Below are positions 4,206-33,738 of a stretch of DNA of 64,000 nt, in pieces. The stretch lies in assembly GCA_024693845.1 (NCBI GenBank), contig JAILKJ010000045.1, positions 62,001 through 126,000 on the forward strand, given 5' to 3'. Under the pieces are notes generated by a model, which had not been told where the DNA came from, did no database searches, and saw only the letters and a list, made by a program, of their open reading frames with translations. This DNA is from Lachnospiraceae bacterium. Its GTDB lineage: Bacteria > Bacillota > Clostridia > Lachnospirales > Lachnospiraceae. Position 1 is the stretch's first letter. Each line of letters starts with the position of its first letter. A program made the translations under genes and the position numbers.

Positions 4206-4377
4206 ACGATATTTTGTGGATGCTTCGGGAAAATATACTATTGATTGTATGCGAAAGACGGATCGGAGAAAAGTCTGAATATTTAAAAAAAATACTGTTA
4301 CTTTTCAGAGAATTATTGTATAATAATCATAACTATCAGTATGCATAGTGATAATAATTTGGGGAAGGGAGAACGTC

Positions 4378-4836
4378 ATGGAGGTTACAACCAGAGTATT
4401 CGGAACAGTCGATGTAGCAGAGGATAAGCTGATCCATTTCGCAGGAGGATTGGTTGGATTTCCCGATTTGGTGGATTTTGCATTGATCCATGATTCGGAA
4501 GATGAGAAGGCGAAGGGAATTCAGTGGCTGCAGTCGATCCAGGAACCCCAGTTCGCGATTCCGGTTTTGGATCCGCTATCGGTGCTTGACGGCTATAATC
4601 CGCAGATCGAAGATGAGCTGCTGAAACCGTTGGGAGAGCTTAATGGTGATAACATGCTGGTCCTGGTGACCGTTACCGTTCCCAGGGATATTGCACAGAT
4701 GAGCGTTAATCTGAGAGGGCCCATCATCATCAATACAGATAATCGCATGGCAGCTCAGGTGATCGCAGAAGGGGAAGAGTATCCCGTTAAATATCCTGTT
4801 TACGACATTCTGAAACGCCGCAAGGAGGAAGGTTGA
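4378..4836 (+). CDS. fliW: Flagellar assembly factor FliW
   Basis: FliW binds flagellin and, when released, sequesters CsrA. It thereby links flagellin secretion to translation of flagellin mRNA. The 152-residue product has the family pattern: EDKLIHFAGGLVGFPDL near residues 12-30, then a IPVLDPLSVL segment and PVKYPVYDIL near the C terminus. An upstream in-frame ATG (4348) is less likely because GGGAAGGGAG sits just before the ATG at 4378. A TATAAT hexamer at 4319-4324 could be a -10 box, but I see no good -35. The csrA gene starts 1 nt after the fliW stop, so the two partner proteins are made from one message. Confidence 0.95.
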   Translation: MEVTTRVFGTVDVAEDKLIHFAGGLVGFPDLVDFALIHDSEDEKAKGIQWLQSIQEPQFAIPVLDPLSVLDGYNPQIEDELLKPLGELNGDNMLVLVTVTVPRDIAQMSVNLRGPIIINTDNRMAAQVIAEGEEYPVKYPVYDILKRRKEEG

Positions 4837-4837
4837 T

Positions 4838-5053
4838 ATGCTGGCTTTATCTCGAAAAAAGGGAGATTCCCTCGTTATCGATAATAATATTGAGATCACT
4901 GTTCTGGAAGTAAAAGGAGAACAGGTGAAACTTGGTATCACGGCACCGAAGCACGTTCCCGTGTACCGCAAGGAAGTCTATATCCAGATCCAGGAAGCAA
5001 ACAAGGAAGCTATGCAGGCTGCTTCGCCGGAGGATCTGAAGGGACTTATGTAA
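4838..5053 (+). CDS. csrA: Carbon storage regulator CsrA (RNA-binding translational repressor)
   Basis: CsrA is a small homodimeric RNA-binding protein that blocks ribosome access at GGA-containing hairpins. The 71 residues begin MLALSRKKGDSLVIDNNI and continue with ITVLEVKGEQVKLGI, the canonical beta strands; the APKHVPVYRKEVY segment carries the RNA-contacting arginine. The Shine-Dalgarno AAGGAGG lies at the 3' end of fliW, indicating translational coupling. In Bacillus subtilis this fliW-csrA pair controls flagellin translation, and a matching candidate target is visible in the flagellin leader of this window. Length and motifs are typical. Confidence 0.97.
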   Translation: MLALSRKKGDSLVIDNNIEITVLEVKGEQVKLGITAPKHVPVYRKEVYIQIQEANKEAMQAASPEDLKGLM

Positions 5054-5099: not shown

Positions 5100-5160
5100 A
5101 GGTGATAGAGGATCACCGGGCACTTGTAGTTATACGCTATTTCACATGGAGGTGAGGAAA

Positions 5161-8136: not shown

Positions 8137-8161
8137 TTTCAATTTTTTTCAATTTTGGTAT

Positions 8162-8187
8162 TAATTTATCGGACGAAGCTCCGATAT
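8162..8187 (+). promoter_or_regulatory. Sigma-28 (SigD)-like promoter for flagellin, nested in an inverted repeat
   Basis: TAAT (8162-8165), 14 nt, and TCCGATAT (8180-8187) match the flagellar sigma pattern. TATCGGA (8167-8173) and TCCGATA (8180-8186) are exact inverted repeats, so the -10 box forms one arm of a 7-bp palindrome. Transcription should start near 8194, leaving a leader of about 110 nt. Confidence 0.65.
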
Positions 8188-8260
8188 ATAATACAGATAA
8201 CAAATTAACCAGGAAAGAGAAGTGACGGGAGCGTACGGCCTGGATCCGATTTTTCCAACC

Positions 8261-8300
8261 ACTGATCGTCATGGAAGACGACAGTTAAATTCAAGGAGGA
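8261..8300 (+). promoter_or_regulatory. Candidate CsrA-binding leader of flagellin mRNA
   Basis: ACTG-A-TCGTC (8261-8270) pairs with GACGA-CAGT (8277-8285), leaving one bulged A and a hexaloop ATGGAA that displays GGA. Eleven to sixteen nt downstream the Shine-Dalgarno GGAGGA (8295-8300) offers a second GGA. A GGA in a hairpin loop plus a second GGA overlapping the ribosome binding site is the arrangement known for CsrA control of hag in Bacillus subtilis. csrA and fliW lie 3.3 kb upstream. Confidence 0.65.
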
Positions 8301-8306
8301 AATATT

Positions 8307-9122
8307 ATGGTAGTACAACACAATCTTACAGCAATGAACTCTAACAGAATGCTTGGCATCACCACCGGTACCCAGGCAAAGTCCACTGAGAAGCTTTCTT
8401 CCGGTTACAAGATCAACCGTGCAGCAGATGATGCAGCAGGTCTTGCAATTTCCGAGAAGATGCGTCGTCAGATCAGAGGTCTTACTCAGGCTTCTGCTAA
8501 CGCTCAGGATGGTATCTCCTGTGTACAGACTGCAGAAGGTGCACTGAATGAAGTACACGATATGCTGCAGAGAATGAACGAGCTGGCTGTTAAGGCTAAG
8601 AACGGCACCAACAAGACCGATGATCGTGAGTACATCGACAAGGAAGTTCAGAACCTTGTTTCCGAGATTAATCGTGTCAGCAGCACCACTACTTTCAATG
8701 AGCAGAACCTGCTGAATGGTGAGTTCTCCAGCGGCAAGAAACTCCAGGTTGGTGCAGAGGCTAGTCAGGTTATCACTTTGACGATCAGCAAGATGTCCGC
8801 ATCTGCTATCGGTATCTCCGGCGTTTCCGTTGGTACCGCTACTGGCGCAAGTGATGCCATCGCTTCCATCAAGAACGCTCTTGCATCTGTATCTAATCAG
8901 AGAGCTGAGCTTGGTGCGATTCAGAACAGACTTGAGCACACCATCAAGAACCTTGATAATGTCGTTGAGAACACGACAGCTGCAGAGAGCCAGATCCGTG
9001 ATACCGATATGGCTTCTGAGATGGTTAGATTCTCCAACAACAACATCCTTGCTCAGGCAGGACAGTCTATGTTGGCTCAGGCTAACCAGAGCAATCAGGG
9101 CGTTCTTTCCTTACTTGGCTAA
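8307..9122 (+). CDS. hag: Flagellin (filament protein)
   Basis: The product is a 271-residue flagellin, short but complete. Residues 1-140 form the N-terminal D0/D1 helices (VVQHNLTAMNSNRMLGITT, STEKLSSGYKINRAADDAAG, QDGISCVQTAEGAL), and residues 190-271 the C-terminal D1/D0 helices ending QGVLSLLG. The middle region (about 145-190) is small and rich in Ser, Thr, Ala and Gly; it contains the likely O-glycosylation sites for the neighbouring Maf and glycosyltransferase genes. Codon choice is strongly biased and unlike the AT-rich glycosylation genes that follow, as expected for an abundant protein. It has its own sigma-28-like promoter, a structured leader and a strong terminator, so it is probably monocistronic. 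Confidence 0.97.
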   Translation: MVVQHNLTAMNSNRMLGITTGTQAKSTEKLSSGYKINRAADDAAGLAISEKMRRQIRGLTQASANAQDGISCVQTAEGALNEVHDMLQRMNELAVKAKNGTNKTDDREYIDKEVQNLVSEINRVSSTTTFNEQNLLNGEFSSGKKLQVGAEASQVITLTISKMSASAIGISGVSVGTATGASDAIASIKNALASVSNQRAELGAIQNRLEHTIKNLDNVVENTTAAESQIRDTDMASEMVRFSNNNILAQAGQSMLAQANQSNQGVLSLLG

Positions 9123-32393: not shown

Positions 32394-32429
32394 GAAAAAA
32401 GCTGCTCGCATCTGCCGGGCAGCTTTTTC
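32394..32429. terminator. Bidirectional terminator between convergent genes
   Basis: GAAAAAGCTGC and GCAGCTTTTTC (within 32394-32405 and 32419-32429) form an 11-bp stem. The A tract on one side and T tract on the other let it end both the CMP-sugar synthetase transcript and the minus-strand FliD-like gene, whose stop codon it overlaps. Confidence 0.85.
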
Positions 32430-33738
32430 AGCAGTAGTTGTTGAAGAGGAAACCGCTGTAAGCGCTTGTGGTGTAGGGATCCACAAAGTTCTTACCGGGG
32501 TTCTTATAGGCTACTATCGTTTTATTTACATATTCCATAGGGTTCAGCGTGATCTGGCTGGTCTTCCGCAGCATGGAGTTTGCGAAATCCTTTACCGGTC
32601 CCATGGTTGTGGCAGCATCCTGAGAGGAGGCGGCGGATTTGAGCTTCTCGTCATCGATGTTCAGCCGCCCCTGATCATCAAAGGTAAGGCCGATGGCATC
32701 CAGATCCGAGGCGTAGTGCCTTGTCATGAAGCTGATCTGGCTGTGGAGAAGAGAACTCTTGGTGTGCTCCCCCGTAACCTTGAAGGTATTGTCCAGGAAG
32801 GAATTATAGCTGCCCACCAGAGAGTGGATGTTCTCTGCCAGGGAGTCCACGTCTCCCTTCAGACCGATCTCGGTGGCAATGCCCGGTTCAGGGGAGAGCC
32901 CCTGGAGGGTTACCTCATATTGCTTGTCTATGGTAAAAGTATTGGAGGAGGCTCTTCTCTCGATGCCATTGATCTCGAAGAGGGCATCCGAAGGCTTCTC
33001 CATAACTCTGTTCAGCCCCAGGTAATCTACGATACCGCTGCTCTGGGAGGTATTGTCATCGCTGATGGAGAAGATCAGCTCCTTTTGCTGGACGCCGGTC
33101 TGGGTGGAGGACAGCTTCAGGGAGGAATTCCCGCGGCCGTCTTCAAGGACCTGTCCTTCCACACCGATCTCCGCATTGGTGATCAGCCTGGCCAGTCTGT
33201 CCTGGATATCACGGTTGGTATCCTCCTCGCGGATCTGGAACTGGAACTCGTAGCCGATGTCATTGATGGAAAGATCAAAGGAATAAGCGGAGGGATGAAG
33301 CCCTATCACTTCTTCCGAAGCAAGGTAATTACCCACATTCTCCTGAGGGAAAGCCAGCTTGGCAACGGCGAGCTCAAAAGTGGGAGCCGTTTCCGTACCA
33401 TCATTACCGAGGTAGCGTACCGTTGCGATCTCCGGACGCGTAGAATAGGGAAGCTTGTTATCCAAAACGCTGCTTTCATCCATGTGATCCTGGGTGGAAA
33501 GAACGGCGTTCCTGAAGGAACGGGCATTCTCTTTAAGCGAAATAGCATAAGCCTTAGCTTCGTCACTGCGATCAAGGATAGCCAGAGGGGATTCTTTATT
33601 CAGTTTAACGATGGAATTATAGACTTTCTTCAGATCGTCCTTCTTATGAGCGTCGAGTGAAGAATTCGTCCTGGGTGCATACTCTGCCAGATAGTGATTA
33701 TATACCTGGTTGAGTGCATCGAAATTAACGCCTGCCAT
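32428..33738 (-). CDS. Second, divergent FliD-like flagellar cap/hook-associated protein
   Basis: This 436-residue gene shows FliD features but is not the main fliD. IGLTFDDQGRLNIDDEKLKS near residue 345 is a typical FliD_C segment, and the SSNTFTIDKQYEVTLQGLSP block near 265 matches the FliD hook-loop motif. The N terminus (MAGVNFDALNQVYNHYLAEY) lacks the usual I.G..SGLDT start, and the C terminus ends YSGFLFNNYC instead of a long coiled coil. AGAAAGGAGG precedes the start on the minus strand. I found no sigma-28-like promoter for it. It could cap a specialised filament, act as an adhesin on the filament tip, or be an export-associated FliD relative in glycosylated flagella. Confidence 0.8.
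   Translation of the reverse strand: MAGVNFDALNQVYNHYLAEYAPRTNSSLDAHKKDDLKKVYNSIVKLNKESPLAILDRSDEAKAYAISLKENARSFRNAVLSTQDHMDESSVLDNKLPYSTRPEIATVRYLGNDGTETAPTFELAVAKLAFPQENVGNYLASEEVIGLHPSAYSFDLSINDIGYEFQFQIREEDTNRDIQDRLARLITNAEIGVEGQVLEDGRGNSSLKLSSTQTGVQQKELIFSISDDNTSQSSGIVDYLGLNRVMEKPSDALFEINGIERRASSNTFTIDKQYEVTLQGLSPEPGIATEIGLKGDVDSLAENIHSLVGSYNSFLDNTFKVTGEHTKSSLLHSQISFMTRHYASDLDAIGLTFDDQGRLNIDDEKLKSAASSQDAATTMGPVKDFANSMLRKTSQITLNPMEYVNKTIVAYKNPGKNFVDPYTTSAYSGFLFNNYC

Follow-up and report, generated by a model that had tools for sequence, protein, structure and literature searches.

The flagellar locus and its regulators

The window analysed here is a stretch of 64,000 nt from a Lachnospiraceae genome, and all coordinates are based on it. 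It contains a late flagellar locus that comprises a flgL-like gene, a gene for an MptE/MAF-like protein, fliW, csrA, flaG, fliD, fliS, an FlgN-like gene and the flagellin gene. The features that bear on flagellin control are as follows.

4378..4836, + strand: fliW (Pfam FliW, 9.8e-37; PDB 5dmb FliW)
4838..5053, + strand: csrA, 71 aa (Pfam CsrA, 2.2e-25; PDB 5dmb/1t3o)
5140..5157, + strand: Shine-Dalgarno sequence (SD) of flaG in a CsrA-type hexaloop hairpin, UUUCAC-AUGGAG-GUGAGG, 90 nt behind csrA
8161..8187, + strand: sigma-28-type promoter of flagellin, read from the sequence, with -35 TTAA (8161-8164), a 15-nt spacer and -10 TCCGATAT (8180-8187)
8212..8256, + strand: upstream structured element, with P1 GGAAAGA/UUUUUCC, an internal loop, P2 CGGG/CCUG and a 9-nt loop AGCGUACGG (8230-8238)
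8261..8285, + strand: CsrA-type hairpin, site 1, with 5 bp, a bulged A, 4 bp and the hexaloop AUGGAA (8271-8276)
8290..8301, + strand: site 2, the flagellin SD (AAGGAGG, 8293-8299) in a weak hairpin UUC-AAGGAG-GAA with hexaloop ANGGAG
8307..9122, + strand: flagellin (hag/fliC), with its ATG at 8307 (Pfam Flagellin_N, 1e-42; Flagellin_C, 1.5e-27)

That the flagellin locus includes csrA and fliW, as a preliminary description of this DNA claimed, is borne out by the Pfam matches. The listed open reading frame of fliW begins with a GTG at 4348, while homology runs from the ATG at 4378. The start of csrA lies 1 nt past the fliW stop, as expected for the translational coupling of fliW and csrA reported in Bacillus subtilis (PMC6529632). 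A search of the genome gave a single match to csrA, which is therefore the sole copy. Residues read by position include L4, R44, I51 and N55, together with a C-terminal extension; N55 and V/I51 are FliW contacts and R44 is an RNA contact (PMC7829508), and judged by its sequence this CsrA is of the FliW type. Across 200 genomes of the family, 103 carry both FliW and flagellin, 5 flagellin only, 2 FliW only and 90 neither (p 7e-48), so that FliW is found in 103/108 flagellin-bearing genomes and in 2/92 of those without flagellin.

From the promoter, the flagellin transcript would be expected to start near 8193-8196, giving a leader of about 110 nt. Sequence comparison shows GGTATTAA...TCCGATATA in the flagellin promoter region to be common to relatives. 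An inverted repeat ATCGGA...TCCGAT (8168-8185) overlaps the -10 box in the window and in the congener L118, and is absent or weaker at this position in other relatives.

The CsrA-type hairpin and the Shine-Dalgarno site

Site 1 can be read directly from the letters as ACTG (8261-8264), a bulged A (8265), TCGTC (8266-8270), the loop ATGGAA (8271-8276), GACGA (8277-8281) and CAGT (8282-8285). This agrees with the 9-bp stem, single bulge and GGA hexaloop given in the preliminary description, and the second GGA placed there within the SD is likewise found, with the two GGA starts 22 nt apart. The hairpin is present in the minimum-energy fold of both the short leader and the full leader. The folding energy of the short leader segment is no better than that of shuffled sequences (z -0.03), and the evidence for site 1 must therefore come from comparison with relatives. 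Unconstrained folding returned a leader of three hairpins in the window and in most of six relatives. A pairing of UUUUUCC (8250-8256) with GGAGGAAA that would sequester the SD was discarded, being found in the short-segment fold and gone from the fold of the whole leader. Nine ANGGAN hairpins of at least 5 bp occur in the window, of which only site 1 has an RGGAGG SD within 40 nt downstream.

For the comparison we collected flagellin leaders from family genomes, 80 named contigs and congeners, which gave 113 leaders, or 102 without near-duplicates. These were scanned from -60 to -20 for hexaloop hairpins that have a stem of at least 5 bp and GGA as bases 3-5 of the loop, using 200 dinucleotide shuffles as the control. 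An ANGGAN hexaloop hairpin of at least 5 bp is present in 64/102 non-redundant leaders, compared with a mean of 0.2 and a maximum of 2 in the 200 shuffles, and the same region of the 102 leaders holds 69 hexaloops of at least 5 bp in total, 64 of them ANGGAN. The first loop base is A in 64/64 and G3-G4-A5 is invariant, while position 2 is A, C, G or U in 34, 4, 13 and 13 leaders respectively. ANGGAN is the loop of the CsrA/RsmE NMR structures (PMC7652899). Stem covariation reaches 0.958, against 0.222 (sd 0.025) when shuffled and 0.05-0.21 with slid partners; all five loop-proximal stem pairs show double changes, and 99% of cells are paired. The preliminary description had hinged on conservation of the stem and GGA loop in relatives, and both are kept, as a covarying stem around an invariant A-N-GGA loop.

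Close relatives illustrate the pattern. The complete leader of L118 has the same stem as the window with the loop changed to ACGGAU, and in L037 and L039 the inner stem and the bulge are unchanged, with AUG/CAU or AAUG/CAUU as the outer part. The remaining 38/102 leaders have no GGA hexaloop hairpin of at least 5 bp in the scanned region, and many of these are paralogues or belong to other leader classes. In the genome of the window itself, site 1 is lacking from the two flagellin paralogues for which the leader was read. Paralogues in Butyrivibrio (L058:3936, L063:3841, L079:3931, L086:5001 and others) form a distinct class of flagellin leader in which there are additional GGA loops, GCAGCCAUGGAAGGGACUCCG ... 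GGCAGCAGGGAAGC ... CAUGGAGG.

In the window, the stem at site 2 has just 3 bp (UUC/GAA). Flagellin SDs in the family are nearly always C-AAGGAG-G, with ANGGAG in 101/102 leaders, and the sequences flanking the SD have a mean complementarity of 3.56 bp, compared with 2.78 when flanks are permuted between leaders (maximum 3.08 of 1000 permutations). When full leaders of the window and its relatives are folded, the GGA of the SD lies inside a hexaloop in the window and in most of the others. The distance from GGA to GGA is 19-26 nt in the 64 leaders, and CsrA can bridge a separation of 10-63 nt, with an optimum above 18 nt (PMC7652899), so the second GGA overlaps the SD at a bridging distance both in the window (22 nt) and in the family.

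A structured element upstream of the hairpin

Between the promoter and site 1 lies a further element of two coaxial helices capped by a 9-nt loop, N2-CGUACG-R. The sequence AGCGUACGR about 75 nt before the flagellin start is common to relatives, and an ungapped alignment (A1) of 29 leaders was collected by the CGUACG hexamer, in 26 of which the element lies 73-84 nt ahead of the start codon. Covariation in these 29 leaders is 0.675, compared with 0.225 (sd 0.029) when shuffled and 0.09-0.20 in slid registers, and all 10 pairs of the two helices show double changes. P2 averages 3.0 bp against 0.5 in shuffled flanks (maximum 1.1), and P1 7.1 against 3.7 (maximum 4.4). The hexamer is self-complementary and invariant in all 29 loops, an invariance that is partly due to selection because the leaders were collected by it; loop position 9 is always a purine. 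Matches to a covariance model (R1), which were collected without use of the hexamer, have CGUACG in nearly every flagellin leader found, and a UGUACG variant occurs among them in one probable chance match only. As the loop is constrained and the sequence of the stem is free, something appears to recognise the loop.

R1 has a single match in the genome of the window (E 5e-8). Among 299 family genomes, most of the 30 matches fetched (E down to 1e-3) lie directly before flagellin starts, and a small remainder is truncated at contig ends or chance-like. Outside Lachnospiraceae R1 gave weak matches, none of them upstream of flagellins, which we take as chance; the element was thus found in Lachnospiraceae flagellin leaders only. 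A CsrA hairpin of at least 4 bp follows the element in 29/29 leaders. On the non-redundant set, with at least 5 bp, the hairpin is found in 26/28 leaders with the element and in 39/74 without it. Neither the element nor the leader has an Rfam match at the gathering score, Termite-flg, an Rfam family suspected from its flagellar-sounding name, does not match the leader, and text searching with the loop sequence returned nothing on bacterial leaders that could be connected. A leader with this linked upstream element is a variant without description in the papers and libraries searched.

A proposed CsrA switch

We consider it highly probable (about 90%) that the leader is a dual-site translational repressor switch for CsrA, of the FliW-CsrA-flagellin type, to which the upstream element is added as a module. 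The basis for this lies in the sequence, the covarying structure, the spacing, the presence of csrA and fliW, and the co-occurrence of the parts; CsrA binding, repression and antagonism by FliW are inferred from the B. subtilis and Campylobacter jejuni systems. A CsrA dimer would bind the ANGGAN hexaloop at 8271-8276 and bridge 22 nt to the ANGGAG site containing the SD, and the bridged CsrA would keep ribosomes off the flagellin mRNA. FliW, encoded next to csrA, would bind and inactivate CsrA unless flagellin in the cytoplasm occupies it, and the export of flagellin would in this way switch on flagellin translation. The CGUACG-loop element at 8212-8256, an additional folded module of the leader, would in some manner act together with the CsrA hairpin. 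That site 1 is instead a hairpin for mRNA stability or ribosome stand-by, with an incidental GGA and no role for CsrA, is very improbable: strong leader hairpins are known commonly to stabilise abundant mRNAs and the site 1 stems are GC-rich, but A-N-G-G-A is kept in the loop on a freely varying stem, the second GGA keeps its spacing of 19-26 nt, and nearly all flagellin-bearing genomes sampled have FliW.

What the upstream element contributes to such a switch can be read in several ways. It may be bound by a protein conserved in Lachnospiraceae, or by a trans-acting RNA, that tunes the access of CsrA or the stability of the mRNA, a reading to which we give a little less than an even chance. 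The invariant loop on freely varying stems would suit such a partner, as would the co-occurrence with the CsrA hairpin (29/29, at least 4 bp). We regard a protein or RNA partner as at least as likely as dimerisation of two flagellin mRNAs through kissing of their CGUACG loops, which on present evidence seems unlikely. The layout of the loop is that of retroviral dimer-initiation loops, where a self-complementary hexamer is preceded by two nucleotides and followed by one purine. The invariant self-complementary CGUACG in 29 leaders, followed in each by a purine at loop position 9, is consistent with a kissing contact, and with one copy of the element per genome the partner may be the element itself. 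Against this, the chance of a conserved hexamer being palindromic is 1 in 64, some leaders carry other loops (GCCAGCR in Butyrivibrio), and no clear replacement palindromes were found in other clades, although a contact that serves dimerisation only would be expected to change there in a compensated way.

Loops of GGGCCC, CCUAGG and GCGCGC do occur in a few other leaders, in elements that are not clearly homologous. The GGGCCC and CCUAGG loops (L048, L070, L105, L111, L114) seemed promising but were not counted as replacements, since three of the genomes hold a separate flagellin copy with a CGUACG element, and in several of the other leaders the frame is of another type, TAATA...TTATTATAA, which may lie at a promoter. 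In canonical Butyrivibrio leaders the 7-nt loop GCCAGCR is conserved on a varying stem.

It is quite unlikely that the element is a mere 5' stability hairpin with a loop conserved by descent, as might be suggested by its place near the 5' end of the transcript and by the unrelated 5' hairpins of many other leader classes, because all 10 pairs have compensatory changes while the six loop bases are fixed, and descent alone would not spare the loop where the stems have diverged. Slightly less probable still is the wider proposal that Lachnospiraceae flagellin mRNAs dimerise or cluster through the kissing loop in a manner coupled to CsrA/FliW control; if true, one CsrA dimer could bridge two mRNAs, for example, or flagellin synthesis could be co-localised.

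Comparison with known systems

One of the known leaders nearest to the present one is that of B. subtilis hag, under CsrA-FliW control (Yakhnin 2007; Mukherjee 2011, 2016, as relayed in PMC7652899 and PMC8523840). As hag is portrayed in those articles, the two leaders agree in a pair of CsrA sites, here predicted ones, of which the first lies upstream and the second covers the SD, and both organisms have a FliW-type CsrA; in both, fliW and csrA are adjacent and apparently translationally coupled. The match to the two-site hag design proposed in the preliminary description gains support from the 22-nt spacing, the single-copy, probably FliW-type CsrA and the fliW gene in the locus. The present leader differs from hag, which is compared here by its description in the same articles, in the extra covarying CGUACG-loop element and in the conserved CsrA-type hairpin at the SD of flaG.

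C. jejuni flaA likewise has a pair of neighbouring ANGGA hexaloops, of which the second covers the ribosome-binding site, and the spacing of the two leaders is 21-22 nt, the flaA GGA-GGA distance being 21 nt (PMC4894983). Compensatory changes are common to both, as is the flaG leader as a further target, here a predicted one (PMC4894983; Dugar 2016). C. jejuni belongs to a different phylum, and its flaA leader of 45 nt is too short for the upstream element. In Clostridioides difficile, a member of a different family, fliC has two predicted sites, TGACAAGGATGT and CTAAGGAGGG, and control of flagellin by csrA/fliW was shown genetically; no upstream element is described there (PMC8523840). The CsrA switch in the window would therefore be of a known kind, as in B. 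subtilis hag and C. jejuni flaA, and the comparisons indicate that the FliW-CsrA flagellin checkpoint of Bacillus and Campylobacter may extend throughout one of the major motile families of Clostridia in gut and rumen. The upstream element is a new, strongly covarying structured RNA that Rfam does not list, and as it was never seen here without a CsrA hairpin (at least 4 bp) it provides a defined new part for testing.

Other predicted CsrA targets and proposed sponge RNAs

The hairpin at the flaG SD is conserved, with an AYGGAG loop on a UCAC/GUGA-type stem kept in 14/16 distinct flaG upstream regions found, and binding of CsrA to flaG is known from C. jejuni (PMC4894983). A second model (R2), of hairpin plus SD, was built from 44 flagellin leaders. 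In the genome of the window it ranks the flagellin leader best at 45.3 bits, 17 bits ahead, a match that arises by construction because this leader is in the model. The second match (C9:51751, L246; 28.2 bits, E 1e-6) is the leader of a DUF6033 gene, in which UUGAA-ACGGAA-UUCAA is followed by CUAC-AAGGAG-GUAG with a GGA distance of 21 nt, behind a sigma-28-like promoter. On these sequence features flagellin, flaG and the DUF6033 gene are predicted CsrA targets.

The TwoAYGGAY RNA (RF01731), a proposed CsrA sponge of Clostridia (PMC4333381), resembles the leader in its ANGGAN-type loops and its occurrence in flagellated Lachnospiraceae, but is a separate RNA family and is absent from the genome of the window. 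It occurs in 34/200 family genomes, many with at least 13 dispersed copies, and of these carriers 33/34 have flagellin and 31/34 FliW. A joint action of FliW and sponge RNAs on CsrA is raised as a question in PMC7652899, and the co-occurrence of TwoAYGGAY with FliW makes Lachnospiraceae a family in which their joint action can be tested. In L016 a TwoAYGGAY RNA lies just behind a flagellin gene (2490-2654).

Two further features of the window were noted. An open reading frame of 436 aa on the - strand (32428-33738) has a FliD-type likeness by eye; its neighbours are non-flagellar genes, and the main fliD lies elsewhere. The segment 37722-37870 is an ordinary ribosomal protein L10 leader (RF00557, 63.7 bits).
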